Made by a program: the position numbers and the translations under genes. DNA of 64,000 bases from Microcella alkaliphila (GTDB lineage: Bacteria; Actinomycetota; Actinomycetes; Actinomycetales; Microbacteriaceae), in assembly GCF_002355395.1 (NCBI RefSeq), contig NZ_AP017315.1:2356001-2420000 (forward strand). Direction: 5' to 3'. Positions within the stretch are counted from its first letter, which is position 1. Every line of letters begins with the position of its first letter. Shown here one piece after another: positions 26,559 through 42,166 of the stretch. The notes under the pieces are model-generated. The model did not search any database. It was not told the DNA's origin and was given only the letters and a program-made list of their open reading frames with translations.

Positions 26559-27830
26559 CTACGCGAGGATCGTCAGCGGGTTCTCAATACGCGCGACGAA
26601 GGCGGCGAGCCAGCGTGCGGCGAGCGCCCCATCCCAGGCGCGGTGGTCGGCCGACAGGGTGACCGCCATCACGGTGCCCAACTCGAGCGCACCGTCGACG
26701 ACGACCGGCGCCTGCCGGGCCGCCCCCACCGCGAGAATTCCCGCCTGCGGCGGGTTGATGATCGCGCTGAACGACTGCGTGCCGAACATGCCGAGGTTCG
26801 ACACCGAGAAGCTGCCGCCCTGCATCTCGTCGGGCTTCAGGCCACCCCCACGCGCGCGCGTGGCGAGGTCGGCGATCGACCGGCCGAGCGCGCTGACGCT
26901 GAGTGCCTCGGCCCCGCGCACGACCGGCACGACGAGCCCGTCATCGAGCGACACCGCGATGCCGACGTCGACCGTGGCGTGCCGCACCATTCCCTCGTCG
27001 CTCCAGGTGCGGTTCGCCTCGGGAACGTCGAGGAACGCACCGGCGACCGCCTTCACGACGAGGTCGTTGACGCTGATCTTCGAGGCGGCGCCCTCGTTCA
27101 GACGCTTACGCAGGTCGAGCAGCGCGTCGACCCGGCACTCGGCCTCGAGGTAGAAGTGCGGCACCTGGTTCTTGCTCTCCGTGAGCCGCCGCGCGATCGT
27201 CGCCCGCATGCGGCTGTGCGGAACCAGCTCGGCGCCCTCGGGCAGCGCGGCGGCCGCGCCACTCGCGGTCGAAGCAGACGAGGCGGGCGCGGATGCGCGG
27301 GGCGCGTCGCCCGCACCCGTCGCGACGGCACTCTGGCCGCCTCCGCTGGCGATGAGCGCCTCGAGGTCTTTACGCACGATGCGGCCGTCGGGGCCGGAAC
27401 CCTGAACGCCGTCGAGGCTGATGCCCTTCTCTCGGGCGAGCCGCCGCACGAGGGGGCTGACGAACTGGCGTCCCCCGCTGGAGGCTGGGGCCGGGGCACT
27501 CGGCGCCTCCACGGGGGCGCTCGGAGCATCCGAGGTCGCGGGCGCGCTCGCGGCAGACGCCGCGGGGGCCTCCTCGACAGTCGGGGTTTCGCCCGCCTCG
27601 CCGACGACCGCGATCGGTGCACCGACGTCGACCGAGTCGCCCTCAGCGACAACGAGTTCCAGCACGGTGCCCGCTGTCTCGGCCGTGTACTCGACGACGG
27701 CCTTCTCGGTCTCGATCTCGGCGAACGGCTGGCCCACCTCGATGGTGTCGCCGGGGGCGACGAGCCACTTCTGCACGGCGGCCTCGGTGACGTTCGCGAG
27801 CACCTCCGGCATGCGAATGGTGGTCGACAT
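26559..27830 (-). CDS. Dihydrolipoamide acyltransferase (E2) of a 2-oxoacid dehydrogenase
   Basis: Core acyltransferase of a pyruvate-, acetoin- or branched-chain-type dehydrogenase complex. 423 residues in three parts: a lipoyl domain (about 1-80, lipoyl Lys in EIETEKAVVEY), an Ala/Pro-rich linker, a peripheral-subunit-binding domain (about 125-160, SPLVRRLAREKGISLDGVQG), a second linker, and the catalytic domain ending with SADHRAWDGALAARWL, whose HxxxDG supplies His and Asp. It shares one base with the E1 stop (TGATG). No lipoamide dehydrogenase (E3) gene is in the window, so E3 must come from elsewhere. The acyl specificity cannot be read with confidence. Confidence 0.92.
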   Translation of the reverse strand: MSTTIRMPEVLANVTEAAVQKWLVAPGDTIEVGQPFAEIETEKAVVEYTAETAGTVLELVVAEGDSVDVGAPIAVVGEAGETPTVEEAPAASAASAPATSDAPSAPVEAPSAPAPASSGGRQFVSPLVRRLAREKGISLDGVQGSGPDGRIVRKDLEALIASGGGQSAVATGAGDAPRASAPASSASTASGAAAALPEGAELVPHSRMRATIARRLTESKNQVPHFYLEAECRVDALLDLRKRLNEGAASKISVNDLVVKAVAGAFLDVPEANRTWSDEGMVRHATVDVGIAVSLDDGLVVPVVRGAEALSVSALGRSIADLATRARGGGLKPDEMQGGSFSVSNLGMFGTQSFSAIINPPQAGILAVGAARQAPVVVDGALELGTVMAVTLSADHRAWDGALAARWLAAFVARIENPLTILA

Positions 27831-30019
27831 CAGCGCGCTCCCCCCGCGTGGCGGCGCACGGTCTCGAGGCCGGTGACGACCTCTTCCGTGCGCGCGATGG
27901 CGGCCCGCTCGAGCACCTTCGAGATGGACGGCGACGACTCCGCGCCGGTGACGCGCTGCACGGGCTGGTCGAGCCAGTCGAACAGGCGCCGCTGGATCTC
28001 GTCGGCGAGCCAGCCGCCGTACGACGTGCCGACCGCACCCTGCTCGACGATGAGCACCGCGTTGGTCTTCTTGACGCTGGTCTCGATGGTCTCCCAGTCG
28101 ATGGATGCGCGATCAAGCCAGCGCAGATCGATCAACTCGCCGTCGACACCGGTTTGCTCGATCGCCTCGAGGCTGTGCTTCACCATCGACAGGTAGCTGA
28201 TGACGGTGACCTCGCTGCCCTCGCGGCGCACGGCCGCCTTCCCCGGCGGGATGATGTAGTCCATGTCTCCGTCGATGACGGTGTCTTTTTCTCCGTACAG
28301 GTCGACGTGTTCGATGACGAGCACAGGGTCCTGCAGGGCGAGCGCGGCGTTCATCAGGCCGACGTAGTCTTCGGCGCACGACGGGGCGACGATGCGCCAG
28401 CCGGGGCTCGTCGCAAAGATGCCGGCCGGGTCCATGAGGTGCTGCGAGCCGTAGCCCGAGCCCATGGCGACCTTGGTGCGCAGAACGAGGGGCACGGGGT
28501 TATCGCCGCCGAACATGTGGCGCGCCTTGCCGATCTGGTTGAACACCTGGTCGGCGGCGACCCACATGAAGTCGGGGTACATGAACTCGATGACGGGGCG
28601 GTAGCGTCCGTCGAGCGCGAGGCCGCCCCCGAGTCCGGCGAACGCGTTCTCGCTGATCGGGGTGCCGAGCGTGCGGTCGGGAAATGCCGTCGACAGGCCC
28701 TTCGTGGCTCCGTTGGTGCCGCCCTTCAGGCGGTGGATGTCTTCACCGAGCACGATGATCCGCTCGTCGGCACCCATGCGGTGCTCCATGACGCCGGCGA
28801 CGGCATCGACGAATTTGACGTCCTTGCGCGGCCGCGAGTCACTGGTCGGTTCGAGCGCGGTGAGCGCGTCGAGCTCGCTGCCGTCGCCGCGCACGCCGAC
28901 GTTGACGAACGCGGGGTCGGGCCAGAGCTCGGGGCGGATGCGGCGGCGACCCTCCTTCTCGGCGTCGGCCTCCAGCAGTTCGGCGGTGGCCGCATCCATC
29001 GCCGCGATGGCCTGCTGGCGCACCTGCTCGACGCCGGCCTCGTCGATGAGGCCGAGCTTCTGCATCTCGTCGGCGACCTTGATCAGCGGGTCGCGCTTCT
29101 TCCACTCCTCCTCTTCCTCTTTCGTGCGGTAGCCGAAGGCGCTGCCCGGGTACGGCCCGTTCTGGTGGAAGAAGCGATAGACCTCGGCCTCGATGACGAC
29201 GGGGCCGTTGCCGGCCCGCATGTGGGCGGCGGCCTCCTCCATCGCGAGGTGCACGGCGAGCGGGTCCATGCCGTCGACGCGCCACGAGGGGATGCCGAAG
29301 CCCTGGCCGCGCACCGACAGTCGGGTGTCGGCGACCGACTCCTCGATGTGCGTGGCGACCGCGTAGAGGTTGTTCTCGACGAAGAACGCGACGGGCAGCT
29401 TCCACGCCGCGGCGAGGTTCATCGACTCGAGTACCGAGCCGATCTGGGCCGCGCCGTCGCCGAAGTAGTTGATCGTGAGGTCGTCGGTGCCCGAGCGCTT
29501 CTGCGCCCACGCGTTACCGGTCGCCATGGGCGCGCCGCCGCCGACGATGGCGTTCGTGCCGAGGGCGCCGGCTTCGAACCACTGCAGGTGCATCGAGCCG
29601 CCGCGACCGCGACAGTAACCCTGGGCGAGCCCGAGAATCTCGGCCAGAGTCTTTTGCAGAACCTCCTGGATGCGCGGGGTCACCAATTCGGACGGGTTCA
29701 GCCCGTCGGGCGTGACGTGGGTGAGCGCCTTGGCGAGGAATTGGTGGTGGCCTCGGTGCGAACCGTTGACGGCATCGGTCGAGCGTAGGCCGACGATGGA
29801 GCCGACCGCGCCACCCTCCTGGCCAATCGAGGAGTGCGCGGGGCCGTGCACCAGGCCTTCACCGGCGAGCTCAAGCACCCGCTCTTCGAAGGCGCGGATG
29901 AGGTACAGCTGCCCGAGCATCGTCTGCAGAAGCCCCGGGTCGGCCTTCTTCCAGTCGGCGGCGGTCGTTGACAGCTCGACCCAGTCAACCCCGGTTTCCA
30001 GACGTCGGCGCTTCGGCAT
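27830..30019 (-). CDS. Fused alpha-beta E1 of a 2-oxoacid dehydrogenase
   Basis: Thiamine-diphosphate decarboxylase of the same complex. 729 residues with the alpha and beta chains joined. The alpha part (about 1-370) has the ThDP motif GDGAAQIGSVLESMNLA ending in VENNLYAV. The beta part (from about 400) has EDIHRLKGGTNGATKGL, the MYPDFMWVAADQVFNQIGK stretch and a C-terminal transketolase domain. I start at the ATG at 30019, with GGAGGA 8 bases before; the in-frame extension to 30100 crosses the promoter. It is divergent from the VOC gene and has a promoter with an embedded palindrome at 30072-30100, so it is probably under the neighbouring GntR regulator. Confidence 0.92.
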   Translation of the reverse strand: MPKRRRLETGVDWVELSTTAADWKKADPGLLQTMLGQLYLIRAFEERVLELAGEGLVHGPAHSSIGQEGGAVGSIVGLRSTDAVNGSHRGHHQFLAKALTHVTPDGLNPSELVTPRIQEVLQKTLAEILGLAQGYCRGRGGSMHLQWFEAGALGTNAIVGGGAPMATGNAWAQKRSGTDDLTINYFGDGAAQIGSVLESMNLAAAWKLPVAFFVENNLYAVATHIEESVADTRLSVRGQGFGIPSWRVDGMDPLAVHLAMEEAAAHMRAGNGPVVIEAEVYRFFHQNGPYPGSAFGYRTKEEEEEWKKRDPLIKVADEMQKLGLIDEAGVEQVRQQAIAAMDAATAELLEADAEKEGRRRIRPELWPDPAFVNVGVRGDGSELDALTALEPTSDSRPRKDVKFVDAVAGVMEHRMGADERIIVLGEDIHRLKGGTNGATKGLSTAFPDRTLGTPISENAFAGLGGGLALDGRYRPVIEFMYPDFMWVAADQVFNQIGKARHMFGGDNPVPLVLRTKVAMGSGYGSQHLMDPAGIFATSPGWRIVAPSCAEDYVGLMNAALALQDPVLVIEHVDLYGEKDTVIDGDMDYIIPPGKAAVRREGSEVTVISYLSMVKHSLEAIEQTGVDGELIDLRWLDRASIDWETIETSVKKTNAVLIVEQGAVGTSYGGWLADEIQRRLFDWLDQPVQRVTGAESSPSISKVLERAAIARTEEVVTGLETVRRHAGGAR

Positions 30020-30071
30020 CGTTGCGGTCCTCCTCGTGCGGGGCTCGCGACGTCGCGGCCCGATGCGCGCA

Positions 30072-30100
30072 ACTGTAGCAGCGATTGCATCCAATGTCAC
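30072..30100 (-). promoter_or_regulatory. E1-E2 promoter with embedded GntR-type operator
   Basis: On the minus strand GTGACA (30100-30095) and TACAGT (30077-30072) are 17 bases apart. The palindrome ATTG-CATC-CAAT at 30084-30095 lies between them. It differs in one base from ATTGGATCCAAT, the type of site described for the FCD-class regulator VanR, so repression of E1-E2 by the GntR protein at 30706 is plausible. Confidence 0.6.
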
Positions 30101-30142
30101 CGGTATAGCCCCTGATCCTCACCCATACGCTCGATTTCGCGC

Positions 30143-30155
30143 TATATTGCATCCA
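30143..30155 (+). promoter_or_regulatory. Second operator copy over the VOC-operon -10
   Basis: TATATT (30143-30148) is the best -10 for the VOC-GntR operon. It overlaps ATTGCATCCA (30146-30155), an exact 10-base copy of the E1 operator core. No good -35 is visible. Confidence 0.5.
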
Positions 30156-30178: not shown

Positions 30179-30709
30179 ATGACGCACGGCATTCCGGGCC
30201 TCCGCGGTACCGAGCACATCGGCTTCACCGTGCCCGACCTCGATGCGGCCGAAGACTTCTTCGTCACCGTGATCGGCTGCGAGCGCATATATTCGCTCGG
30301 CCCATACGTGCGCGATGACGACTGGATGAGCGAGCACCTCAACGTGCACCCGCGCACCGTGATCCGCGAGCTGCGGTTCTTCCGGTGCAAGCACGGGCCG
30401 AACTTCGAGATCTTCGAGTACGAGTCGGCCGATGGACAGAACCCGCAACCGCGTAACAGCGACATCGGCGGCCACCACCTGGCCTTCTACGTGGATGACA
30501 TGGATGTAGCGGTCGCTTACTTGCGGAGCAATGGAGTGCGCGTGCTCGGTGAGCCGACGGCGAGCACAGCCGCCTCGGAGGGGCAACGCTGGGTGTACTT
30601 CCTCGCGCCGTGGGGCATGCAGCTCGAACTTGTGAGCTTCCCGAACGGTAAAGCGTACGAAGCAACGAGTGACGTGCGGCTCTGGGACCCGCGGAACCCG
30701 AGCGCATGA
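30179..30709 (+). CDS. VOC-fold (glyoxalase/dioxygenase superfamily) protein
   Basis: 176-residue metalloenzyme-like protein with two beta-alpha-beta-beta-beta repeats. Candidate metal ligands are His in GTEHIGFTVPDLDAA (near residue 14), His in GGHHLAFYVDDMDVA (near 103) and Glu in MQLELVSFP (near 152). The reaction is unknown: glyoxalase, epimerase, lyase and extradiol dioxygenase all occur in this fold. It opens an operon with the GntR regulator (ATGA overlap) and the beta-hydroxyacid dehydrogenase, facing E1-E2. ATG start with AAGGAGAG 5 bases upstream. Its place in the catabolic island suggests that it acts on a pathway intermediate. Confidence 0.85.
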   Translation: MTHGIPGLRGTEHIGFTVPDLDAAEDFFVTVIGCERIYSLGPYVRDDDWMSEHLNVHPRTVIRELRFFRCKHGPNFEIFEYESADGQNPQPRNSDIGGHHLAFYVDDMDVAVAYLRSNGVRVLGEPTASTAASEGQRWVYFLAPWGMQLELVSFPNGKAYEATSDVRLWDPRNPSA

Positions 30710-31428
30710 GCGCGCTTGATCAGCCCGCGCGAGGCCCGTCCCGCGACGGCAACGCGAGCGCGCGAGTCGCGGACGCTCTGCGCGACGCCATCAGCGCCGG
30801 CACCTATCCTCCGGGGTCACGGTTGCGCCAGGAAGAGATCGCCGCACGCTTTGGCGCGAGCCGCGTGCCCGTTCGCGAAGCGCTCAAGATTCTGGAGTCG
30901 GACGGTCTCGTCACGCTCGTGGCCAACACGGGCGCCTGGGTGTCGCGCCTCACCCTGGCGGAATGCGAAGAGGTGTACCAGACGCGTGAGCGAGTGGAAC
31001 CCCTCCTGCTTCGCCTCTCGGCCCCGGGCCTCACCCCGGTCGACATTGATCGACTCGAGCAATTCGCCGAGCGCATGGCTCAGACGAGCGACGTCGAAGA
31101 GTTCTTGCGACTCGACCGAGACTTCCATGCCGCCACCTACGCCGGCGCTGACACGCTGGTGCTCGGTGACCTGGTGCGTCGTCTCTGGAACACCACGCAG
31201 CCCTACCGCCGGGCGTACACGCTGCTCATCGACGCCCACAGCCAGCGCATCGTGCACGATGAACACCACATGATCGTCACGGCGTTGCGCGACGGAGACT
31301 TGGACACCGCCGAGCGGGTCATCGAGGGTCACATCCGACGCACCCGTCGGCTGCTCGCGCAGCACCCCGAAGTGTTCTCGCCCAGCGAGACCACCGACCA
31401 TCCGGCGCCCGCGCGCGTCGACGAATGA
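30706..31428 (+). CDS. GntR-family regulator, FCD (FadR/VanR) class
   Basis: DNA-binding repressor of 240 residues. The winged helix (about 20-90) contains PPGSRLRQEEIAARFGASRVPVREALKILESDG. The C-terminal FCD domain (about 100-225) has the metal/ligand residues Asp and His in LDRDFHAATYAG and His in VIEGHIRRTRRLL. FCD proteins usually sense small carboxylic acids. Start overlaps the VOC gene stop (ATGA). Two copies of ATTGCATCCA in the 30020-30178 control region are likely operators, so it probably controls both the E1-E2 operon and its own operon. Confidence 0.93.
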   Translation: MSALDQPARGPSRDGNASARVADALRDAISAGTYPPGSRLRQEEIAARFGASRVPVREALKILESDGLVTLVANTGAWVSRLTLAECEEVYQTRERVEPLLLRLSAPGLTPVDIDRLEQFAERMAQTSDVEEFLRLDRDFHAATYAGADTLVLGDLVRRLWNTTQPYRRAYTLLIDAHSQRIVHDEHHMIVTALRDGDLDTAERVIEGHIRRTRRLLAQHPEVFSPSETTDHPAPARVDE

Positions 31429-31438: not shown

Positions 31439-32305
31439 ATGACCACGCTGGGGTTCTTGGGGCTCGGCAACATGGGCCAGGCCATCGCCGGTCGGCTTGT
31501 CGCCGCCGGCTACAACGTCATCGTGTGGAACCGTAGTCCCGGCGCGGCTGACGAGCTCGTCGCCGCCGGCGCGCGGCTCGCCACGGATGCTCGCGAGGCG
31601 CTCGCCGCGCCCGTCTCGTTCTCGATGCTGGCCGACGACGCAGCGGCGGAAGCCGTGCTGTCGGAACAGAACCTTGCCAGCGACGGTGAGGGGCGCATCC
31701 ACGTGAACATGGCGTCGATCAGCGCGGCGGCGGCCGACCGCATCCAGGCGGTCGCCGAGGCCGTAGGCGTCGGCTACGTGTCGTGCCCCGTGCTCGGACG
31801 CCCGAACGTCGCCGCGGAAGGCAAGCTCAACCTGCTTGTCGCCGGCGCCCCCGAGCTGTGCGACGCGGTCGCCCCCTACCTCGAGCACTGCGGCGTGAAG
31901 CAGTGGCGTTTCGGCGACACCCCCCGCCAGGCGAACGCCGTCAAGGTGGCGATGAACTTCACGATTCTGCACGCGCTGCAGGCGATGGCGGAGTCGATCA
32001 CCCTCGTCGAGGCGCACGGCGTCGACGCGAGCGACTTCATCGAACTGATGTCGAACAGCCTGTTCGCCGGCCCCGTGTACGCCGGCTACGGGTCGATGAT
32101 CGCCGAGCGGCGCTACAGCCCTGCCGGCTTCCGCATGCCCCTCGGGCTCAAAGACCTGGGCCTCGCCGAAGACCTCGCGTCGGAGAAGGCCGTCGAGTTG
32201 CCGACCGCCCCGATCCTGCGTGACCGATTCGAGCGCGCGCTCGCCGACGCGGAGCTCGCCGAGCTCGACTGGTCGGCGGTCGCCGAAGTGACCCGTCGGC
32301 GCTAG
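31439..32305 (+). CDS. NAD(P)-dependent beta-hydroxyacid dehydrogenase
   Basis: 288-residue oxidoreductase of the 3-hydroxyisobutyrate / tartronate-semialdehyde reductase family. N-terminal GFLGLGNMGQAIAGRLVAAGY is the dinucleotide-binding motif; the substrate-site Gly/Ser region is only partly standard (CPVLGRPNVAAEGKLNLLVAG); the catalytic Lys is in NAVKVAMNFTILHALQ near residue 170. It ends the VOC-GntR operon. Its stop codon shares CTAG with the stop of the convergent XRE-cupin gene. It may reduce or oxidise a 3-hydroxy acid or semialdehyde arising in the island's pathway (inference). Confidence 0.88.
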   Translation: MTTLGFLGLGNMGQAIAGRLVAAGYNVIVWNRSPGAADELVAAGARLATDAREALAAPVSFSMLADDAAAEAVLSEQNLASDGEGRIHVNMASISAAAADRIQAVAEAVGVGYVSCPVLGRPNVAAEGKLNLLVAGAPELCDAVAPYLEHCGVKQWRFGDTPRQANAVKVAMNFTILHALQAMAESITLVEAHGVDASDFIELMSNSLFAGPVYAGYGSMIAERRYSPAGFRMPLGLKDLGLAEDLASEKAVELPTAPILRDRFERALADAELAELDWSAVAEVTRRR

Positions 32306-33048
32306 GAGCGGTCGCCGCGCAGGCCGCGCATGACCTGGAGCACGTCGACGGCCGACGCCGGGGCCTTCATCTGCTCCGCGGCGTCGCCGGCATGGTCGTG
32401 ATCGTGGTCGAGCTCGTCGAGGGATTCGATCGTGACGTCTTTGCGGGCGATCACGAACCAGATTCCTCGCGCCGGGACGTCCCCCTCGTTCACGTACATG
32501 TGGGGCTTGATCGCGTCGAAGCAGAACGAGTCGCCGGGTTCGAGCTCGTAGCGGTCGAACTCGATGCGCAAGGTGAGCTTGCCCTCGAGCAGCACGCCGT
32601 ACTCGGTCGCAGCGTGGCGCATCATCTTGCCCTCGACCGACGAGGAGCCCTGCGGCTGGTACGTCACGATAAGGGGGTCGGCGATGGCCGACTCTCCCAC
32701 GGACAACCGCTCCCAGGTCACCCCGTTCTCCATCTCGATGACGGGGTTGTCTTCGCGCCGCTGGACGACATGATCACTACGTCGTGACGGATCGCGGGGC
32801 TGGTCATCGTCGGCAGAGCCCAAGCCGAACGGCGCACTCGTCGCGGGGCCATGGCCCATCAGACTGTCGAGCGAAATGCCCAAGAAGTTCACGAGCGCAT
32901 ATAACGTCGACACCGACGGTTGCGTCTTGCCGGTCTCCACCTGCGACAGCAGGCTGGCCGATACACCTACGGCGCTCGCCACCGCTCGCAAACTGAGCTT
33001 GCGGGCTTCTCGAACCTTACGTAGTTCTGATCCCAGGTCGAACTGCAC
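32302..33048 (-). CDS. XRE-family regulator with C-terminal cupin
   Basis: Transcription factor of 248 residues. Helix-turn-helix of the Cro/CI type at about 8-65 (LRKVREARKLSLRAVASAVG, SASLLSQVETGKTQPSVSTL). A cupin sensor domain at about 125-205 (RHAATEYGVLLEGKLTLRI, GDSFCFDAIKPHMYVNEGD). An unusual DHDHDHAGD stretch near the C-terminus could bind metal. GTG start preceded by AGAGG. Proteins of this type often control amine and amino-acid catabolism. It is a candidate reader of the TGTTyA-N7-TrAACA palindromes at 34592 and 42208 (inference). Confidence 0.9.
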   Translation of the reverse strand: MQFDLGSELRKVREARKLSLRAVASAVGVSASLLSQVETGKTQPSVSTLYALVNFLGISLDSLMGHGPATSAPFGLGSADDDQPRDPSRRSDHVVQRREDNPVIEMENGVTWERLSVGESAIADPLIVTYQPQGSSSVEGKMMRHAATEYGVLLEGKLTLRIEFDRYELEPGDSFCFDAIKPHMYVNEGDVPARGIWFVIARKDVTIESLDELDHDHDHAGDAAEQMKAPASAVDVLQVMRGLRGDRS

Positions 33049-33161: not shown

Positions 33162-34544
33162 TCAGCGTCCGCCGCGGCCGTCGACCGTGTTGAGGTGCGA
33201 CTGGCTGTCACGCAGCGTCGAGAGCTCGCCGCCCACCGAGTAGTAGCGCTTGCCCGCAACCAGTAGCTCCTCGGCCGGGAACTTCGTGATGACCTCGCAG
33301 CCGTCCTTCGTGACGACGACCTCTTCCTCAATGCGCGCCGCGCCCCACCCGTCGGCCGCCGGCCAGTAGGTCTCGAGGGCGAACACCATGCCCTCCTCGA
33401 GCACCTCAGGGTGGTCGAAGGAGGTCAGGCGCGAGAAGATCGGCTTCTCCCAAATCGAGAGCCCCACGCCGTGCCCATACTGCAGCGCGAAGGCGGCCTC
33501 CTCGTTCGGGAAGCCGAACTCTTCGGCCTTCGGCCACACGGCGACGACGTCGGCCGTCGTGGCGCCGGGCTTCACGAGAGCGATGGCGCGGTCCATGTAC
33601 TCGCGCGCCCGGGTGTAAGCATCCTTCTGCGCCTGGCTCGCCGAGCCAACCGCAAACGTGCGGTAGTAGCAGGTGCGGTAGCCGTTGTAGCTGTGCAGGA
33701 TGTCGAAGAACGCCGGGTCGCCGGGGCGAATCAGGCGGTCGCTGAAGACGTGCGGGTGCGGCGAGCAGCGCTCACCCGAAATCGCGTTGACACCCTCGAC
33801 GTACTCGGAGCCGAGGTCGTACAGCGTCTTCGCCACGAGCCCGACGGTCTCGTTCTCGCGGACGCCGGGGCGCAAAAACTCGTAGAGGTTCTCGTAGGCC
33901 GCGTCGACCATCGAAGCGGCCTGAGTGAGCAGGCGGATCTCGTCGTGCGTCTTGATGCGGCGGGCCTCGAGGAAGATCTGCTGGCCATCGACGACCTGGA
34001 TGCCCTCGGCTTGAAGCGCGAACAGAATCGGCAACTCGATGACATCGACGCCGAGCGGCTCGTTCGCCAGCCCGAACTTTTCGAGCTCACGCTTGACCTT
34101 CCGTGCAACTTCCTGAGCGATGCCGGCGTCCGGCGGGAACGCGCCGCGCAGGGTGGAGATGCCGGCCCGTGACCCCGACTCGAGGCGAGGACGGGTTGCG
34201 CCATGGTGCGGCGCGTGCGGGTCGGCGTCGGCCTCCGAGTGCGTGTGGTCGAGCCACGGGTTATAGAGCGAGTGGTGCTTGGCGGCCGAACCGAAATCCC
34301 ACACGATGGGGTCGGTCTTTCTCGTCAGCAGTGCGAACCGAATGAGCTTGTCCATCGCCCACGTGCCGATGTGGGTTGCCGACATGTAGCGGATGTTCGA
34401 GAAGTCGAAGGCGAGGACGGCACCGACGTCGGACTGGTCGAGCTGCGCTTTCAGTCGCATGAGCCGCTCGGTGCGCAGACGGTCGAAGTCGACGCGTGCC
34501 TCCCAATCGACGGCGTTCATGCCTGTAGTGCCGGTGCTCTTCAT
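33162..34544 (-). CDS. M24-family (creatinase / aminopeptidase P-like) hydrolase
   Basis: 460-residue pita-bread-fold hydrolase of C-N bonds. N-terminal creatinase-type domain (about 1-195) with a His-rich loop at about 100-114, then the catalytic domain. His358 (YGHGVGLSIWEKP), Glu391 (FALETYW) and Glu406/407 (ARIEEEVVV) match the family. Asp281 is kept, but the second Asp of the dimetal site is Cys292 (GYRTCYYRTF, where GYxSDxTRTF is usual). This pattern fits a creatinase-like, perhaps metal-free, amidinohydrolase or amidase better than a true aminopeptidase. Start at ATG 34544 with GGAGG 5 bases before. Divergent from the sugar-type importer. Confidence 0.85.
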   Translation of the reverse strand: MKSTGTTGMNAVDWEARVDFDRLRTERLMRLKAQLDQSDVGAVLAFDFSNIRYMSATHIGTWAMDKLIRFALLTRKTDPIVWDFGSAAKHHSLYNPWLDHTHSEADADPHAPHHGATRPRLESGSRAGISTLRGAFPPDAGIAQEVARKVKRELEKFGLANEPLGVDVIELPILFALQAEGIQVVDGQQIFLEARRIKTHDEIRLLTQAASMVDAAYENLYEFLRPGVRENETVGLVAKTLYDLGSEYVEGVNAISGERCSPHPHVFSDRLIRPGDPAFFDILHSYNGYRTCYYRTFAVGSASQAQKDAYTRAREYMDRAIALVKPGATTADVVAVWPKAEEFGFPNEEAAFALQYGHGVGLSIWEKPIFSRLTSFDHPEVLEEGMVFALETYWPAADGWGAARIEEEVVVTKDGCEVITKFPAEELLVAGKRYYSVGGELSTLRDSQSHLNTVDGRGGR

Positions 34545-34591: not shown

Positions 34592-34610
34592 TGTTTACCA
34601 CAGATAAACA
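34592..34610. promoter_or_regulatory. Palindromic operator candidate before the M24 gene
   Basis: TGTTTA-CCACAGA-TAAACA, perfect 6-bp arms, in the gap between the M24 gene and the ABC importer. It matches the 42208 site as TGTTyA-N7-TrAACA. Confidence 0.55.
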
Positions 34611-34775: not shown

Positions 34776-35831
34776 ATGAGGCGTTCACCCATCGCACGCC
34801 GCGGGCGCTTGTCGTTCGTGGCACTGGCCGCCGCGGCGGCCCTCACCCTCGGTGCCTGTGCCAGCGATGCTGGCGAGACCCCGACTCCGGGCGACGACAC
34901 CACCGCCGCCCTCACGGAAGAGACCCTGCAGGTCGCCTTCATCTCCTTCGCCGTCGCGAACACCTACGACGAGCCGATGCTCGCCGAGATTCAGCGCGTC
35001 GCCGCCGAGAATAACATCGAGATCACCGTCTTCGACGGCAACCTCGACCCGAACCTCCAGGTCACGCTGATCCAAGACGTCATCGCGTCGGGACAGTACG
35101 ACGGGCTCATCACACAGCCGGTGTTCGGCCCCGCACTCGTCGACGTCGTGCAGCAGGCGCTCGACGCGGGACTCACGGTCGTCAACGTCGACCAGATTCT
35201 GGGTGACGACTTCACGACGGGAGCAACGCAGGTCGACGGTCTCGCCGCGAACGTCGTGTTCGTCCCCTCAGAGATCGGCATCAAGTTCGGCGAGCAAGCC
35301 GTCGCGGCGTGCGCCTCGGCGAACCTCGACCCGTGCAACGTCGCGTTCCTGCACGACGTCAAGGCCTCGGCCATCGGTGTCGCACTCTATGACGGCTTCA
35401 ACTCCGTCATCGAGGGCACCCCGGTGCAGATCGTTGCCGAGGGTGAGACCTTCTACAACCCCGCTGCCGCGCAGGGAGCCGTTGCGGACATCCTCTCGGC
35501 GAACCCCGACATCGACCTCATCGCCACCTCTGACCAGGGTCTGCAGGGCGCGGTGCTGGCCATCGAGGCCGCGGGGCGCTCCCTCAGCGAGTTCCTGATG
35601 ATCGGCTACGGCGGCTCCGCCTGGGGCAAGGAGCGGGTGTCCGAGGGCGTCGTGTTCTCGAACGTCGTGCAGGCGCCGGCCACCGAAGGCCGCCTCGCGA
35701 TGGAGGCCATGGTCGACGCGCTGCGCAACGGCGTCAACCAGGGAGACATCGACCCGTTCGCGGACTTCCCGAACAACGGCGTGATGACGCGCGACAACGC
35801 CGACCAGTTCGCGGGCGAGTGGGCCGGATAG
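34776..35831 (+). CDS. Substrate-binding lipoprotein of a sugar-type ABC importer
   Basis: Periplasmic-type binding protein of the RbsB/Peripla_BP_4 group, tethered outside the membrane. 351 residues. The lipobox is LGAC (MRRSPIARRGRLSFVALAAA then LTLGAC), followed by an acidic Thr/Pro linker and two alpha/beta lobes (VAFISFAVANTYDEPMLAEI, VVNVDQILGDDF). Start at ATG 34776, with GGGAG 8 bases before; the in-frame upstream extension crosses the promoter. First gene of the importer operon. The cargo is not known; its setting among amidohydrolase and creatinase-like genes hints at a non-sugar ligand. Confidence 0.9.
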   Translation: MRRSPIARRGRLSFVALAAAAALTLGACASDAGETPTPGDDTTAALTEETLQVAFISFAVANTYDEPMLAEIQRVAAENNIEITVFDGNLDPNLQVTLIQDVIASGQYDGLITQPVFGPALVDVVQQALDAGLTVVNVDQILGDDFTTGATQVDGLAANVVFVPSEIGIKFGEQAVAACASANLDPCNVAFLHDVKASAIGVALYDGFNSVIEGTPVQIVAEGETFYNPAAAQGAVADILSANPDIDLIATSDQGLQGAVLAIEAAGRSLSEFLMIGYGGSAWGKERVSEGVVFSNVVQAPATEGRLAMEAMVDALRNGVNQGDIDPFADFPNNGVMTRDNADQFAGEWAG

Positions 35832-35834: not shown

Positions 35835-37277
35835 ATGCCTGACACGGCAACCGCTGGCACCCCGCAGCTCCTCGTCGAGCTGCGGGGTGTCGGCAAGTCC
35901 TTCGGCGGCACCCCGGTGCTGCGTGACATCGACCTGACCCTCACGCCCGGGAGCGTGCACGCCCTCGTCGGCGAGAACGGCGCGGGAAAGTCGACCCTGT
36001 CGAAGATCATCTCGGGCATCTACACCGCCGACGCCGGGCAACTATTCGTCGACGGAAACCCCGCGCACTTCACCTCCCCGCGCGAGGCCCTCGACCGCGG
36101 CATCGCAACGATTGCCCAAGAGCTGGCACTCGTGCCCGAGCTCACCGTCGCAGAGAACGTCTTCCTCGGACGCGAGCCGCGCACCGCAGGCTGGATCGAC
36201 CGCAAGAAGCTGCGCGCCGAGTTCGTGGCCGTCGCGGAGCGTACAGGCTTCGACCTCGACCCCGACGCCGTCGTGGGCGGCATGCGCACGGCCGACCAGC
36301 AGAAGGTCGAGATCCTTCGCGCTCTCGCCCGGGGTGCCTCGCTCATCATCATGGACGAGCCCACCGCCGCGCTGTCGAACCACGACGCTGAACTGTTGCA
36401 CGGCGTCGTTCGCCAGCTCGCGAACTCCGGGCACACCGTGCTGCTGATCTCGCACTTCCTCACCGAGGTGCTCGAGCTGGCCGACACCGTCACGATCCTG
36501 CGTGACGGACGGCACATCCAAACTTCCAAGGCAGCGGACGAGACGGAATCGAGCCTCATCGAGGGGATGCTCGGCCGCAGTCTAGGCTCCGTCTTCCCCG
36601 ACAAGCCCCCCGTCGACCCCGAGGCCCCCGAGGTGCTGCGCGTCACCGACCTCGTCGCCCCCGGCGTCAACGGCGTCTCACTCAGCGTGCGCGCCGGCGA
36701 GATCGTCGGCCTGGCCGGCCTCGTCGGGGCCGGGCGCAGCGAGATTGCGCACGCGATCTATGGGTCGGCGCCCCGCGCATCCGGCGTGGTCGAAATCGAC
36801 GGTATTACCTGCCCCGCCGACATTCCGCGCGCGCTGAAGAGGGGCATCTTCCTGATCGGGGAGTCGCGCAAAGAGCAGGGCCTCGTGCTCGGCCGACCCA
36901 TTCGTGACAACGTCACCCTGTCGAACATGGCGCAGGTGGCGCCCGGCGGCTGGGTGCGCACCGGCGACGAGCGACGAGCGTCGCGCGGCCTGCTCGAGCG
37001 CGTGACCGTCGCCGGCGACGACCGGCGCGCCGTCTCGGCGCTCTCGGGCGGCAATCAGCAGAAGGTGTTGTTCGGCCGGGCGTTGCAGAAGGCCCGTCGC
37101 CTGCTCATCGCCGACGAGCCGACGCGCGGCGTCGACGTCGAGGAGGTGCTCGGCCTCGCGCACCGCGTGCTCGTCGTGCGGGCCGGACGCGTCGTTGCTG
37201 AACTCACCGGCGACGAGATGACCGAGGAAAACATCATCACGGCGGCGTTCGCCGATCCGACCCCCGTTGGGAGCTGA
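35835..37277 (+). CDS. Sugar-type ABC importer ATPase (RbsA-like, two domains)
   Basis: 480-residue ATPase with two nucleotide-binding domains in one chain. Domain 1: Walker A GENGAGKST (near residue 42), Walker B LIIMDEPTAALS; its signature is degenerate (RTADQQKVEI). Domain 2: Walker A is replaced by GLVGAGRSE as usual in this family, with a clear LSGGNQQKVLFGRAL signature and LLIADEPTRGVDV. It begins 3 bases after the binding-protein stop and ends 5 bases before the permease, so the three genes are one operon. Confidence 0.93.
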   Translation: MPDTATAGTPQLLVELRGVGKSFGGTPVLRDIDLTLTPGSVHALVGENGAGKSTLSKIISGIYTADAGQLFVDGNPAHFTSPREALDRGIATIAQELALVPELTVAENVFLGREPRTAGWIDRKKLRAEFVAVAERTGFDLDPDAVVGGMRTADQQKVEILRALARGASLIIMDEPTAALSNHDAELLHGVVRQLANSGHTVLLISHFLTEVLELADTVTILRDGRHIQTSKAADETESSLIEGMLGRSLGSVFPDKPPVDPEAPEVLRVTDLVAPGVNGVSLSVRAGEIVGLAGLVGAGRSEIAHAIYGSAPRASGVVEIDGITCPADIPRALKRGIFLIGESRKEQGLVLGRPIRDNVTLSNMAQVAPGGWVRTGDERRASRGLLERVTVAGDDRRAVSALSGGNQQKVLFGRALQKARRLLIADEPTRGVDVEEVLGLAHRVLVVRAGRVVAELTGDEMTEENIITAAFADPTPVGS

Positions 37278-37282: not shown

Positions 37283-38344
37283 ATGAGCATCGACGCCCCC
37301 GAGAAGACGGCACCCGCCGCACCCCCGCCCGCTTCGCGCGGCGGATCGTTCGGCGACAACGCGGATGCTGTGCAGCGGTTCCTGAGGAACGTCCCGTGGC
37401 GCTCGGTCGCGATCGTCGTGCCGTTCCTCCTCGTGTTCATCGCACTGTCGATCGGGAGCCCGGCCTTCCTGTCGGCGCAGAACATCGGCAACGTGTTGGA
37501 CCGGCAGGCCGGAATCCTGATCATTGCCGCGGCCGCCACCCTCGTCCTCATCGCGGGAGGTATCGACCTCTCGGTCGGCGCCACCTACATGTTCACCGCG
37601 GTGGTCTGCGGCACGATCATCGTCCGGGTGGGCGGCGAAACGGGAGCGGCGCTGGGAATCGCCGTGGGCATCCTCGCCGGCCTCGCCATCGGGCTCATCA
37701 ACGGGATCATCAGTACGTATCTGAGGATCAACCCCCTGATCGCCACCCTCGCGATGAGCTTCATCATCCTGGGCGCGACGAAGCTCGTGTCGCAGTTCGG
37801 CAAGGAGGGCGTCGGCCAGATCCGTGTCGACGTGCCCGAGTTCCGGTGGCTCGCGCTGCTTCGCCCCCTCGGGGTGAGCCTGCCCACCTGGATCGCCGCC
37901 GTCGTGCTCATCGTGCTCGGCGTCGTGCTGTGGCGCACCACCTTCGGGCGGTACGTCTACGCCGCTGGCGGTAACGCCGAGGCGGCCAGGCTGGCGGGTA
38001 TTCGCATCAACGTGGTGCGCATCGCGACGTTCGCGCTGGCGGGGACTGCCGCGGGCCTCGCCGGAGTCATCGACCTGGCGCGGACCCCCTCGGTGCCCGA
38101 GAACGATGCGATCGCGACAACGCTGACCTTCACGGTGCTCGCCGGCATCGTCGTCGGTGGCACCTCGATCCTCGGCGGCGCGGGCGCCGTCTGGCGCACC
38201 GTGCTCGGCATCCTGTTCATCGCCATGCTCTACAACGGGTTCACCCTGCTGCGTATTGACCCGCTGTTCCAGGGCATCGCGCTCGGGGTCATCATCCTCG
38301 TGGCTGTCGGCTTCGACGCCTGGTCGAGGACCCGCAGGAGGTAA
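37283..38344 (+). CDS. Sugar-type ABC importer permease (RbsC-like)
   Basis: 353-residue integral membrane protein with a cytosolic N-terminus (about 50 residues) and eight to ten helices. Family marks: AGGIDLSVGATYMFTA, NPLIATLAMSFIILGATKLV, GRYVYAAGGNAEAARLAGI and GGTSILGGAGAVWRTVLG, the last being the coupling region. It completes the binding protein-ATPase-permease operon. Two strong hairpins directly after the stop end the transcript. A single permease gene implies a homodimer. Confidence 0.92.
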   Translation: MSIDAPEKTAPAAPPPASRGGSFGDNADAVQRFLRNVPWRSVAIVVPFLLVFIALSIGSPAFLSAQNIGNVLDRQAGILIIAAAATLVLIAGGIDLSVGATYMFTAVVCGTIIVRVGGETGAALGIAVGILAGLAIGLINGIISTYLRINPLIATLAMSFIILGATKLVSQFGKEGVGQIRVDVPEFRWLALLRPLGVSLPTWIAAVVLIVLGVVLWRTTFGRYVYAAGGNAEAARLAGIRINVVRIATFALAGTAAGLAGVIDLARTPSVPENDAIATTLTFTVLAGIVVGGTSILGGAGAVWRTVLGILFIAMLYNGFTLLRIDPLFQGIALGVIILVAVGFDAWSRTRRR

Positions 38345-38439: not shown

Positions 38440-38822
38440 CCGGATGCGCGGCCCCGCCGCCGAGGCCCGTCAGGGATGCGCGGCCCTGCTGCCGAGGCGC
38501 GTCGGGCGCGCCAGCCTGCCGCCGAGGCACGTCGTGTCGCGTCGCCCCGGTTCACCGACCGCCACGCCGCAGCGCGAACGGCGTGTCCGCCGCGTCAGCG
38601 GGACTTCGCGACACGCGGGTCGGAGGGCGCAGCACCCGGCGCGCCGCCTCGCTGCGCCAACCTCGCGGACATCCGGTGGCGTCGAATGCGCGGGATGCGC
38701 AGACCAGCTCCAGGGATGCGCGGGATGCGCAGGCCAGCTCCAGGGATTCACGGCCCTGCCGCCAAGGCGCGTCGGGCGCGCGCCACGCCAGCCGCCCACG
38801 CCGCGCACGGCGCCGGGACACG
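38440..38822. repeat. Repeat-rich non-coding gap
   Basis: Holds two 30-bp tandem copies (38684-38713 and 38714-38743) that differ in two bases, with GGATGCGC repeated inside each. A second unit, GGCCCTGCCGCCGAGGCGCG with variants, occurs at about 38460, 38482, 38515 and 38752. GTGTCCGC...GTCAGC at 38583 resembles the palindrome arm at 23303. Open frames here are compositional only. Confidence 0.75.
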
Positions 38823-38826
38823 CGAA

Positions 38827-38859
38827 ACGGCGGGTGGCCCCCAGGGGACCACCCGCCGT
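38827..38859 (-). terminator. Terminator after the amidohydrolase
   Basis: ACGGCGGGTGG and CCACCCGCCGT form a perfect 11-bp stem with CCCC/GGGG pairing possible inside the loop, 25 bases past the stop. On the minus strand TTCG follows. Confidence 0.7.
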
Positions 38860-38884
38860 CAGCAGCGGTTGAAGCTGGCGAGCC

Positions 38885-40324
38885 CTACTTCTCCTCGTCG
38901 AGGTACATGTATGGGTTCGCGATCGGCTCGTCTTCGGGCAGGGCAGGGTTCATCCACTCGGCCCAGGCCTCTTCGCCCAGCTCGCCGCGCACGTGCTCGA
39001 CCGAGGCGGCGACGCGGTCGGCGACCGGCTTGAGCGGCAGTCCGATGCGCTCACCGTCGAACTTGACGACCTTGCCGTCAACGACCACGGTGTGCACGTC
39101 GGCGGTTCCCGCCTGGTACACGACGTGGGCGTACGGGTTGAGGATCGGCGTCATCGCGGGCGACTCGTCGTTCTTCAGCAGCACGAGGTCGGCTTTCTTG
39201 CCCACGGTGATCGAGCCGAGCTTGTCGGCCATGCCGAGGGTGTGCGCGCCGCCCATGGTGGCCTGCCAGACGGCGTCTTCCGCTTTCATGCGGTTGACGT
39301 TGACCGTCTCGCCGGCATTGTGCGCCTCGAGGTGGTCACGCGAGCGGAACGACGACAGCGTCGAGCGCATGGCCGAGAAGAAGTCGGCGCTCCACCAGAC
39401 GCTGGTGTCCATCGACAGCGACGCGGTGATGCCGTACTTCTTGGCGACCCACGCCGAGGGGTAACCCTGCCCGGCGCTCTGCTCGCTCTCGGTGGCGACC
39501 GAGATCGTTCCGCCCGTGGCGGCGATCTTGTGATAGCTGTCTGGGCCGAGCGACGACGCGTGTACGTACGTGATCTGGTCCGTCATGAACCCGTGGTCGT
39601 ACATGTACTCGATGTTCGGGTCGCCGTTGACGCCCCACACACCGGCGTGCGTGGTGACGCGCAGACCGAGGTCGCGCGCCGCCTCGAAGGCTCCCTTCTC
39701 GTGGAAGTCGGGGCCCGAGTTGACGTCGAAGGCCACCTGCAGGCCCATCATGTCGGAGGTCGTGAAGTTCTTGACCCAGTTCTGGAAGCCGGGGTCGTTC
39801 ATCCACTCCCACGGCGCACCGAGATAGTTGCCGTAGGCGAGCACGAAGCGCCCGGGGATGCTCTGCAGCGCCTCGACGGCGGCGTCGGCGTAGTCGGGGG
39901 TGCGCAGCGCGTGCGACCAGTCGACCGTGGTGGTGACACCCTGGTCGACCGACTCGAGGGCGCTGAGCTGGTTGCCGGCCGCAATGTCTTCGGCGCGGAA
40001 TACGTGGCCCCAGGTCAGGTAGTAGAAGACGAAGTACTGGCTGAGCGCCCAGTCGCCGCCGTAGCCGCGCAATGCGGTCTGCCACATGTGGCGGTGGGTG
40101 TCGATCATGCCGGGCATCAGGATTCCGCCCTTGGCGTCGATCTCCAGCGTGCCCGCCGGTACCTCGAGGTTGTGTCCAACGCCAGCGATCGTGTCGTCGG
40201 TGATGAGTACGTCGGCGTTTTCGAGTACGCCTGCCGAGTCGACCGTAATCACCGTGGCGTTGCGGAAGACGACGGGTCGTCCGGGCGCGAAGTCGTCGGC
40301 GCGGGGTGCGACGGCATCGGTCAT
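38885..40324 (-). CDS. COG0402-type amidohydrolase / deaminase-like
   Basis: 479-residue TIM-barrel metal hydrolase related to cytosine and triazine deaminases. Beta-sandwich flank (about 15-65, RNATVITVDSAGVLENADVL), metal HxH at His77/His79 (MIDTHRHMWQ), further ligands His226 (THAGVW), His255 (YVHASSLG) and Asp306 (SMDTSVWW). The glutamate that follows the third His in classical deaminases (HxxE) is missing here (HAGV). The C-terminus completes the sandwich (ITVGKKADLVLL). Start at ATG 40324 with GGAGGA before it. Downstream of the bicupin-SDR pair on the same strand, 244 bp away, with its own palindrome upstream. Substrate unknown; C-N hydrolysis or deamination is inferred. Confidence 0.87.
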   Translation of the reverse strand: MTDAVAPRADDFAPGRPVVFRNATVITVDSAGVLENADVLITDDTIAGVGHNLEVPAGTLEIDAKGGILMPGMIDTHRHMWQTALRGYGGDWALSQYFVFYYLTWGHVFRAEDIAAGNQLSALESVDQGVTTTVDWSHALRTPDYADAAVEALQSIPGRFVLAYGNYLGAPWEWMNDPGFQNWVKNFTTSDMMGLQVAFDVNSGPDFHEKGAFEAARDLGLRVTTHAGVWGVNGDPNIEYMYDHGFMTDQITYVHASSLGPDSYHKIAATGGTISVATESEQSAGQGYPSAWVAKKYGITASLSMDTSVWWSADFFSAMRSTLSSFRSRDHLEAHNAGETVNVNRMKAEDAVWQATMGGAHTLGMADKLGSITVGKKADLVLLKNDESPAMTPILNPYAHVVYQAGTADVHTVVVDGKVVKFDGERIGLPLKPVADRVAASVEHVRGELGEEAWAEWMNPALPEDEPIANPYMYLDEEK

Positions 40325-40356
40325 GAGTTCCTCCTCGTTGAGCAATTCAATAAAGG

Positions 40357-40372
40357 TGTACGACTGTGTACA
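40357..40372. promoter_or_regulatory. Palindrome upstream of the amidohydrolase
   Basis: TGTAC-GACTGT-GTACA, 33 bases before the start codon. A candidate operator, different from the TGTTyA-type sites. The rest of the SDR-amidohydrolase gap holds only the 40489 hairpin. Confidence 0.4.
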
Positions 40373-40488
40373 GCCAGAGTGAAATACTAACGCCGTCGCG
40401 ACCGATATATCCAGTCGTATCGACTTTTCTCCGCCGAGAGGATGCCCAGAATGCGGCGGCGCGCGCTCCGGTCGCCGCCTTAACGGCC

Positions 40489-40525
40489 GCATCCCTCGCC
40501 GTGGTGGCTCACAGACGAGGGATGC
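40489..40525 (-). terminator. Hairpin after the SDR gene
   Basis: GCATCCCTCG and CGAGGGATGC form a perfect 10-bp stem with a 17-base loop, 44 bases past the SDR stop. No T-run. Confidence 0.5.
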
Positions 40526-40568
40526 TGGGCTCGCGTCCCAGCCGAACGGTTGCGGGGAGCGCGAACGG

Positions 40569-41273
40569 CTAGGTGAGGCGCCAGCCGCGGTCGACGTAGA
40601 GGCTGGTGCCCGAGACGCCGCGATTGTTCAACAGGAACATGGTCGCGTCGACGATGTCGGCCGTGGTGGCGAGCTTGCCGCCGGGCGTGCGCGACTCGTA
40701 GGCCTCGATGACGCCGGCGGGCTTGTCTGCCCAGAACGGGGTGTCGCCGATGATGCCGGGGTGCAGGGCGTTGACGCGCATCGGGGCGAGTTCGAGGGCC
40801 ATCGAGTGCACGAGGCCTTCGACGCCGCCATTGATGGTGGCGACGGTCGTCGAGCCGGGGTACGGCGCGTCTTTCGCGCGACCGCCGAAGAGAACGATGC
40901 CGGTGTCGACGGTCGGCTCGAGCCGGTCGAGAAGCGTGTGCACGACCTCGGTGTAGCCCACGAGCTTCAGGGTGACGAGGCGCCGGGCGCGGGCGATGTT
41001 GTACTCGCGCACGCTGTTCGCGTCGCGCTCGATGGCCGCGAGGACGAGTCCGTGGATCTGACCGCAGGGCTTCAGCGCCTCGACGATCGTCTCGGGCTCG
41101 GAGATGTCGAGGGCAAGGCCCGTCGCGTTCGGGCCGATGGATGCGGCGATCTCGGTCGTGCGCTCAACGTCACGGCCCGTAAGCAACACATTGTCACCGC
41201 GGGCGACGACGGTCTTGGCGATCTCGAGGCCGATGCCGGAGGTGCCTCCGATGACGGCGATCGTGCGGGTCAT
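40569..41273 (-). CDS. SDR-fold protein without the catalytic Tyr-Lys
   Basis: 234-residue Rossmann-fold protein of the short-chain dehydrogenase family. The cofactor motif is intact (IAVIGGTSGIGLEIAK, residues 5-20) and GRD follows strand 2, which suggests NADP. The active site is not standard: where YxxxK is expected the sequence reads TVATINGGVEGL (residues 143-154), so Tyr is replaced by Val and Lys by Asn, and the NxAG motif is VLAAIERD. It may bind a nucleotide as a regulator or use other residues. Its start overlaps the bicupin stop (ATGA), so the two are made together. Confidence 0.82.
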   Translation of the reverse strand: MTRTIAVIGGTSGIGLEIAKTVVARGDNVLLTGRDVERTTEIAASIGPNATGLALDISEPETIVEALKPCGQIHGLVLAAIERDANSVREYNIARARRLVTLKLVGYTEVVHTLLDRLEPTVDTGIVLFGGRAKDAPYPGSTTVATINGGVEGLVHSMALELAPMRVNALHPGIIGDTPFWADKPAGVIEAYESRTPGGKLATTADIVDATMFLLNNRGVSGTSLYVDRGWRLT

Positions 41274-42166
41274 TGCTCCTCCTTGAGCTTGTCGGCGAGG
41301 TACTCCCAGTCGCGAGAGAACCGGTAGGCGTGGCGGGCGGGCATCTGCGGCGCCTGCGTTTCGAGCCAGCGCACTTCGGCACCGACGGCCTCGAACGAGT
41401 GCACGCAGCCGACGCCGGCCCAGGCGATGTCGCCGGGCACCAGGCGGTAGTGGTCGCCGTCAAAGGTGGCGTCGACTTCGCCGTCGAGGATCAGGTAGAC
41501 CTCCTCCAGCGGGTGGTCGTGCGGGCCGGCCTTGCCGGTCGGCTCGTACTGCACCATGAACATCGACCCGCTCGTGGCCCCGAGGTCGGAGTCGACCATC
41601 ATCTTGAGGGTGATGCCGCTGTAGACGAGCAGGGCGGTGCGCATGCTGGCCGACACCGCGAGCAGCTCTTGCGACTGCTTGCCCGGGTTCATGTGCTCTT
41701 CCTGGATGTTGCCGAACGAGCGGGTGCGCGGGTCGCGGGCGTCGACCGTGATGGGGTCGACGACGGGTAGGTCGGCGACGCGGTAGGTGTCGAAGCCGTA
41801 CTTCTCGCGCGCTGGCGGCGTGAAGAGGTCGGCCCACACGGCGTCGGTGTCGCCGACTGAGCGCCACGCGTGGGGCACGCCGATCGGCACGACGCCATAG
41901 TCGCCGGCGACGAGGTGCACGGTCGCCTCGGGGGTCGCGATGATGACCTCGCCCTCAAGAACGTGGAACTGCTCTTCGAACGAGTGCACGTGGGTGGGAA
42001 TCTCGCCGCCGGGTGCGAGCTTCGAGACGCCGAAGTCGCTGTGTACGGCGCCGTCGGCGTAGCCGACACCGAGCCACCGGGTGTAGCCGGTCGAGCCGGG
42101 GGCGATGGGGCCGGGGTCGCGGTAGTCCGCGTCAGCGGCCCGACGAACGACGTAGCGTGCGCTCAT
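41270..42166 (-). CDS. Bicupin protein
   Basis: 298-residue protein with two cupin barrels. Cupin 1 (about 40-115) has THVHSFEEQFHVLEGEVII and the second motif VAGDYGVVPIGVPHAW. Cupin 2 (about 200-275) has GPHDHPLEEVYLILDGEVD and VPGDIAWAGVGCVHSFEA. Both keep the HxH...E metal ligands. Length and layout recall ureidoglycine aminohydrolase and related bicupins, but that assignment is not secure; a dioxygenase or isomerase is also possible. It heads the bicupin-SDR unit and is preceded by a perfect 19-bp palindrome at 42208-42226. Confidence 0.82.
   Translation of the reverse strand: MSARYVVRRAADADYRDPGPIAPGSTGYTRWLGVGYADGAVHSDFGVSKLAPGGEIPTHVHSFEEQFHVLEGEVIIATPEATVHLVAGDYGVVPIGVPHAWRSVGDTDAVWADLFTPPAREKYGFDTYRVADLPVVDPITVDARDPRTRSFGNIQEEHMNPGKQSQELLAVSASMRTALLVYSGITLKMMVDSDLGATSGSMFMVQYEPTGKAGPHDHPLEEVYLILDGEVDATFDGDHYRLVPGDIAWAGVGCVHSFEAVGAEVRWLETQAPQMPARHAYRFSRDWEYLADKLKEEQ

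Follow-up and report, generated by a model that had tools for sequence, protein, structure and literature searches.

A conserved cluster of thirteen genes in Microcella alkaliphila with a cysteine-variant M24 protein and a candidate catabolic function

What do thirteen neighbouring genes of the actinobacterium Microcella alkaliphila do together? By reading frames and family models they lie between pntAB (23559-26427) and rlmB-cysS in a 64,000-nucleotide stretch of the genome (contig NZ_AP017315.1, positions 2,356,001 to 2,420,000; here called the window and numbered from its first letter), the whole genome being a single contig of 2.70 Mb. The original prediction saw in them an undescribed catabolic system of twelve genes with its own importer. 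The genes it named, their coordinates and their families all stood, whereas the number did not, as we counted 13. By their families and their co-occurrence in other genomes the genes look like a catabolic system of their own, importer included, and we lean slightly towards a system for a small polar imported compound that ends in acyl-CoA and is controlled by an XRE-cupin and a GntR regulator.

Gene content and co-occurrence across genomes

The element around which the set is best followed is the gene for an M24 (creatinase-fold) protein (33162-34544, minus strand, with the start set at the conserved MKSTGTT). Homologs at E ≤ 1e-20 occurred in 47 of 199 genomes sampled from the family, many at 80-86% identity and in some genomes together with a second M24 at ~58%. 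The nearest named relative, Microcella alkalica (Microbacteriaceae), has an M24 that is 98% identical, and its bicupin and SDR genes likewise adjoin rlmB-cysS. A fused E1 alpha-beta gene was present in 23 of 41 stretches around M24 (40 from the family and the window).

We also examined named genomes, taking the best 80 of 567 relatives in an M24-alignment scan, which are thus the closest relatives; counts refer to 77 of these loci (labelled L), because the gene caller gave no M24 in L086, L090 and L094. The bicupin was found in 33 of the 77, accompanied by the SDR in all 33 and by an amidohydrolase in 31, while the SDR occurred in 39 loci and any form of E1 in 48. M24, amidohydrolase, SDR, bicupin and E1 were all present together in 20. 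Three loci with titles naming Planococcus or Bifidobacterium breve (a metagenome-assembled genome) (L077, L103 and L105) have M24 neighbourhoods that resemble those of Microbacteriaceae or other actinobacteria, including rlmB-cysS in L077, and their titles look doubtful.

A sample of 396 genomes from the phylum, not picked for the cluster, gave the same picture. With cut-offs of E ≤ 1e-25 for the bicupin and E ≤ 1e-60 for M24, the bicupin was detected in 17 genomes and M24 in 35, and all 17 bicupin genomes carried M24 (hypergeometric 1.6e-20 under an assumption of independent genomes that is not true); in one of the 17 (G474) the bicupin was only 37% identical. The two genes shared a contig within ~14 kb in 16 of the 17, and in the other (G572) they were on separate, short contigs. 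A looser amidohydrolase search returned 31 of the 396 genomes, covering 14 of the 17 with a bicupin. Neighbourhoods were read for 34 of the 35 M24 genomes, one stretch each and with the window excluded (for G368 the stretch came from a different contig than its bicupin). Near these 34 M24 genes we found E1-alpha in 24, E1-beta in 23, a beta-hydroxyacid dehydrogenase in 15, the bicupin in 14, the SDR in 13, the amidohydrolase in 12, the XRE-cupin regulator in 10 and the permease in 5, while each of the control genes PntB, RlmB and CysS was near none of the 34. An E1 was also present at 13 of the 14 bicupin loci. The expectation that M24, the COG0402 amidohydrolase, the variant SDR and the bicupin would co-occur in other actinobacteria thus held in both samples, and the thirteen genes are a conserved system rather than chance neighbours.

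Three kinds of unit combine in these loci, namely a trunk of M24 with E1, a front end, and an importer that differs from locus to locus, mostly CUT2-like. In Microbacteriaceae the E1 of the trunk is usually fused; among the 23 named loci with a fused E1, a VOC-superfamily gene was present in 21 and an E2 in 17, often with a GntR gene. Streptomyces, Nocardioides, Micromonosporaceae and others have an unfused pair instead, typically arranged as XRE-M24-E1a-E1b-amidohydrolase-bicupin-SDR, and no E2-family gene is in view there. The fused form is not phylum-wide, since it was detected at >60% identity in only three of the 396 genomes (12 at E ≤ 1e-100). Among the 77 named loci the fused form (23 loci) and the unfused form (25 loci) never occur together, so that one form of E1 looks to replace the other. 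Front ends consist of an amidohydrolase, SDR and bicupin; of zinc-alcohol dehydrogenases with a PRISE-like reductase, a second VOC protein and a PanE-like reductase; or of a second M24 with an Amidohydro_3 protein, RidA and a branched-chain-type ABC (ATP-binding cassette) importer. In L067, L075, L077, L078 and L080 the second M24 ends a separate unit with such an importer, which in most of these loci includes the Amidohydro_3 protein, RidA and a beta-hydroxyacid dehydrogenase. Farther afield, Roseobacter plasmids carry SDR-M24-E1a-E1b-E2-aldehyde dehydrogenase with a CUT2 importer, and on a Haloferax mediterranei plasmid (L160:8968-12558) an M24 with 34% identity and the same Cys motif adjoins E1b-E1a, with an oxidoreductase and a thiamine pyrophosphate (TPP)-binding protein upstream.

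Altered and intact active sites

The window M24 clearly belongs to its family (138.6 bits against a gathering score of 23 for Pfam PF00557), which is very common (at least 8,000 candidates at E ≤ 1e-20) and is routinely labelled Xaa-Pro peptidase. At the position of the second metal-ligand Asp of prolidases, in the SDITRT element, it has a cysteine, Cys292. Cysteine occupies this position in 40 of 40 examined sequences of the clade, including one haloarchaeal member at ~34% identity, so that the clade lacks the second metal-ligand Asp of catalytic M24 metallopeptidases. The routine peptidase name is probably wrong for the Cys292 clade. Fold neighbours include DddP, DoeA and creatinase; because the AlphaFold model is poor (pLDDT 61.8), this comparison was used at the level of fold only.

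The second altered site is that of the SDR-fold protein (40569-41273, minus strand). A YxxxK catalytic pair is the rule for classical SDR oxidoreductases, and in an alignment of 39 sequences the expected stretch of this protein, PYPGSTTVATINGGVEG, has none. The remaining sites that we inspected are intact. The adjoining bicupin (41270-42166, minus strand) has a C-terminal metal site, HDHPxEE..H, that is invariant in 23 of 23 sequences; a fold search did not separate dioxygenase from aminohydrolase, and the absence of other families from its list excludes nothing. In the amidohydrolase AMH (38885-40345, minus strand; COG0402/PRK08204-like) the residues that we take to bind metal are conserved. 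AMH scores 345.1 against a cut-off of 391 for NF006056 (the PRK08204 subfamily) and so falls short of it, while the related amidohydrolase AMH21 of L016 scores 537.6.

The E2, a dihydrolipoamide acyltransferase (26559-27830, minus strand), retains its lipoyl Lys (ETEKA) and its HxxxDG motif (HRAWDG). The motifs of the fused E1 (27830-30019, minus strand; the frame opens at a GTG at 30100, and 30019 may be the better start) are also intact. The latter, a TPP-dependent dehydrogenase of 2-oxoacid or acetoin type, matches the E1_dh Pfam model and stays below the cut-off of the pyruvate dehydrogenase E1 alpha model TIGR03182 (242.8 against 393.85). We considered a housekeeping role for this pair and rejected it, since the genome has three further E1_dh matches and four further E2 matches, one of each within a single frame of 1265 codons. 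The idea that several members of the set have altered active sites therefore holds for M24 and the SDR and fails for AMH, the C-terminal cupin, E1 and E2.

Shared palindromes and genomic setting

The XRE-cupin regulator (32302-33048, minus strand; HTH_3 and Cupin_2) lies beside M24. Palindromes of the form TGTT-N11-AACA with up to two arm mismatches occur twice in the 64 kb of the window, and 20 shuffles yielded one in total. In related loci the form was present in 3 of 17 (L016, L054 and L056), always upstream of M24. In the window, TGTTTACCACAGATAAACA (34592-34610) stands ~48 bp upstream of M24, and the operator-like TGTTCAGCCTTGCTGAACA (42208-42226), which agrees with the consensus at 14 of 16 positions, ~42 bp upstream of the bicupin-SDR pair. 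The palindrome emerged only with a tighter form and across loci, and the 17 16-mers shared among intergenic regions of the window are inside the shuffled range of 10-37.

We scored the form TGTTCAGTNNNACTGAACA in all loci, requiring at least 12 of 16 positions within 220 bp upstream. It preceded 36 of 125 M24 genes, 30 of 70 XRE-cupin genes, 10 of 34 bicupin genes, 6 of 21 AMH genes and 5 of 11 genes for the binding protein, as well as 11 of 38 PanE-like, 8 of 21 PRISE-like and 5 of 40 beta-hydroxyacid dehydrogenase genes, against a background of 53 of 1105 other genes and 0-1.5% of block-shuffled upstream regions. It was found at none of 44 GntR, 36 E2, 9 RlmB and 6 CysS genes. The enrichment is overstated, to an uncertain degree, because some of the counted sites had themselves supplied the consensus and because promoters of orthologs, several of them from Streptomyces, are not independent. 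Automatic gene starts were also off in the window (XRE-cupin too short, M24 too long) and may be off elsewhere, which shifts some of the upstream regions. The genes marked by the palindrome probably form the regulon of the XRE-cupin protein, and the GntR/FCD regulator (30706-31428, plus strand) probably controls E1/E2 and the VOC-superfamily gene (30179-30709, plus strand), the latter assignment resting on position.

The pntAB genes just past E2 lie on its strand and also adjoin E1/E2 in the close relative L011. At the other end, rlmB, with or without cysS, stands next to or near the cluster in varying forms in the window (42253-44668) and in L051, L053, L056, L067, L077 and L078, and this vicinity may be a preferred landing site for the cluster. 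The 540 bp gap between the permease and the amidohydrolase contains GC-rich imperfect tandem repeats with units of 30-32 bp at 38442-38534 and 38686-38747.

Proposed pathway, rival explanations and known systems

From the gene families we infer the substrate, the order of steps and the reactions of a candidate pathway. The compound would be taken up by the CUT2-like ABC importer, whose Peripla_BP_4 binding protein (34776-35831), sugar-type ATPase (35835-37277) and BPD_transp_2 permease (37283-38344) are encoded in a row on the plus strand. AMH, the bicupin and the SDR-fold protein, the last probably in a non-redox role, are inherited together and would act as one upstream unit for hydrolysis or deamination and rearrangement. 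The Cys292 M24 protein may then cleave the product by hydrolysis of a C-N or C-C bond or by elimination, releasing a 2-oxo acid or an alpha-hydroxyketone that the dedicated TPP-dependent E1/E2 would convert to acyl-CoA. A 2-oxo acid as the substrate of E1 is assumed here, and an alpha-hydroxyketone is just as possible. The beta-hydroxyacid dehydrogenase (31439-32305, plus strand; 3-hydroxyisobutyrate/tartronate-semialdehyde reductase superfamily) might reduce or oxidise a semialdehyde or hydroxyacid by-product, and the XRE-cupin protein would control M24, bicupin, AMH and importer through the shared palindrome. A VOC homolog (54%) in Rhizobium sophoriradicis (L140:9562-14531) directly follows bhcABCD of the beta-hydroxyaspartate cycle, with glycolate oxidase genes upstream, a possible hint that glycolate or glyoxylate is produced.

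Tentatively, and with somewhat less than even confidence, we extend this proposal to the clade as a whole. The Cys292 M24 proteins could be a new type of creatinase-fold hydrolase or lyase that supplies TPP enzymes in bacteria and in some haloarchaea. The M24-E1 trunk could receive different nutrients through several exchangeable front ends, AMH-SDR-bicupin being one of them. If this is true, many microbes of soil, fresh water and the sea use a nutrient that has yet to be described, as has the route of its breakdown, and the conserved set of genes lends itself to direct tests by knock-out and ligand binding. Text searches of open-licence papers in PubMed Central turned up none describing the gene set, which is weak evidence of absence because most queries demanded several terms at once; the papers that did come up concern the degradation of sulfonamides or contaminants, DddP and M24 of wheat.

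Several observations weigh against the proposed pathway, some of them concerning its regulation and others favouring the rival explanations below. The nearest relatives lack TGTT-N11-AACA, and in the window just the bicupin site matches TGTTCAGTNNNACTGAACA strongly, the eight matches at 11 or more of 16 positions being inside the shuffled range of 1-11. The form is rare at AMH21 (4 of 30) and the SDR (3 of 43) and was found at none of 25 unfused E1-alpha, 12 ATPase and 12 permease genes, some of which are inside operons. It is above background at E1 (7 of 46) and VOC (7 of 45), although both are assigned to GntR. Relatives of M24, moreover, are found beside SDRs of polyol type, IolM-like dehydrogenases and a CUT2 binding protein of polyol type, and no nitrogen step is evident there.

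This last point favours the rival that survives best, which we consider unlikely and in which the substrates are polyols, cyclitols or related sugars without nitrogen: M24 would open a cyclic diketone or lactone by hydrolysis, an acetoin-type E1/E2 would cleave the resulting alpha-hydroxyketone, and AMH would hydrolyse a ring instead of deaminating. For two zinc-alcohol dehydrogenases from M24 clusters the best NCBIfam model is IolM (scyllo-inosose 3-dehydrogenase), and for two SDRs it is acetoin reductase, but the IolM scores of 190 and 173 bits fall short of the cut-off of 450, and the window cluster has no such dehydrogenase and an atypical SDR. In the Phaeobacter cluster SDR-M24-E1-E2-aldehyde dehydrogenase the CUT2 binding protein matches the CUT2-type structures 2ioy, 5hko and 4rs3; we take 5hko, 4rs3 and 4rsm to bind polyols. 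The window binding protein is weakly like ribose and allose types and that of L069 weakly like YtfQ, and we rejected an identification of the ligand from binding proteins as not decisive. RidA and amidases in other M24 clusters are hard to account for without nitrogen. Because RidA, amidase or amidohydrolase genes recur beside M24 in other genomes, a nitrogenous substrate is our favoured guess. The original prediction is supported in part; its nitrogen-containing substrate is not established, as polyol-type dehydrogenases and CUT2-type binding proteins recur near M24 as well.

Rather more improbable is that two independent neighbours are seen, an AMH-SDR-bicupin-M24-importer pathway beside an unrelated E1/E2-VOC-GntR unit. 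The operator motif is indeed missing upstream of GntR and E2, and the fused E1/E2 unit stands without M24 in view on plasmids of Phaeobacter, Pseudomonas, Caballeronia, Rhodovulum, Paracoccus and Salipiger and of the actinobacterium Citricoccus, on some of the proteobacterial ones with VOC adjoining the fused E1. No E1 was seen in 7 of 31 phylum loci with an M24 at least 53% identical; four of these stretches measure ≤13 kb and the other three the full 20 kb, and one family (f9) accounts for four of the seven, so that a genuine E1-less lineage is likely. Two of three haloarchaeal stretches likewise have M24 and no E1, one with genes for a TPP-binding protein, EthD, GMC, VOC and amidase and the other for EthD, LLM, SDR and cupin. 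Against this rival, E1-alpha is near 24 of 34 phylum M24 genes compared with none for the controls, M24 and E1 are adjacent in Roseobacters and they lie close together in Haloferax. One linear pathway through all thirteen genes stays a candidate, given the fused E1/E2 units without M24 in view in Proteobacteria and Citricoccus and given that neither the fused E1 nor VOC was near any of the 34 phylum M24 genes, 24 of which have an unfused E1 instead.

It is highly improbable that the genes serve to detoxify or remove an environmental or antibiotic-like compound instead of supporting growth on it. In its favour, on a plasmid of Paenarthrobacter sp. R1 (L131:13211-17383) M24 overlaps a RidA gene ~2 kb from sulR, which encodes a sulfonamide-breakdown flavin reductase, and M24 is also found in 'Candidatus Leucobacter sulfamidivorax'. 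The dedicated E1/E2 and importers suit nutrition instead, the family is also present in genomes as small as 1.1-2 Mb, and the term Xaa-Pro was not found in the main text of the sulfonamide papers PMC10873849 and PMC12285269 (the term M24 was looked for only in the first). With regard to defence, PADLOC gave no matches for M24, bicupin or AMH. That the set encodes a known pathway, whether dimethylsulfoniopropionate (DMSP) lysis by DddP, ectoine hydrolysis by DoeA, creatine breakdown or ureidoglycine metabolism, is barely credible, for although M24 has DddP as its best NCBIfam model, and its poor structural model has DddP, DoeA and creatinase among the fold neighbours, the scores are far below the cut-offs for DddP (NF043017, 115.9 against 600), DoeA (TIGR02993, 57.2 against 613; NF038259, 65.1 against 575) and, for the bicupin, (S)-ureidoglycine aminohydrolase (TIGR03214, 25.8 against 200).

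Several known systems nonetheless share features with the proposed catabolic system. DddP, an M24-family DMSP lyase, is likewise a non-peptidase M24 member with a creatinase fold; its metal ligands are reported to be conserved as in M24 metalloproteinases (PMC4108388), whereas in the window clade one metal Asp is Cys292, and the window partners are E1 and amidohydrolase genes. In DoeA/EutD and creatinase, which are fold neighbours of the window M24, this fold serves to hydrolyse a C-N bond in a small solute that contains nitrogen, but we recognised none of the thirteen as an ectoine or creatine gene. For the window bicupin the known proteins to compare are (S)-ureidoglycine aminohydrolase and quercetinase-type bicupins; its sequence is far below the ureidoglycine cut-off. 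The Thermotoga inositol pathway, IolG-IolM-IolN, in which IolN opens the ring hydrolytically, resembles related M24 clusters in pairing IolM-like dehydrogenases with a hydrolase; its hydrolase is of a family other than M24, and the IolM-like genes score under the cut-off and do not occur in the window cluster. Clusters for acetoin and 2,3-butanediol catabolism are similar to related clusters in grouping diol-type dehydrogenases, TPP-dependent E1/E2 and aldehyde dehydrogenase, but the window cluster adds the M24 and AMH hydrolases, the bicupin and an importer. As a catabolic gene cluster it is thus of a known kind, and it possibly contains a new type of enzyme.

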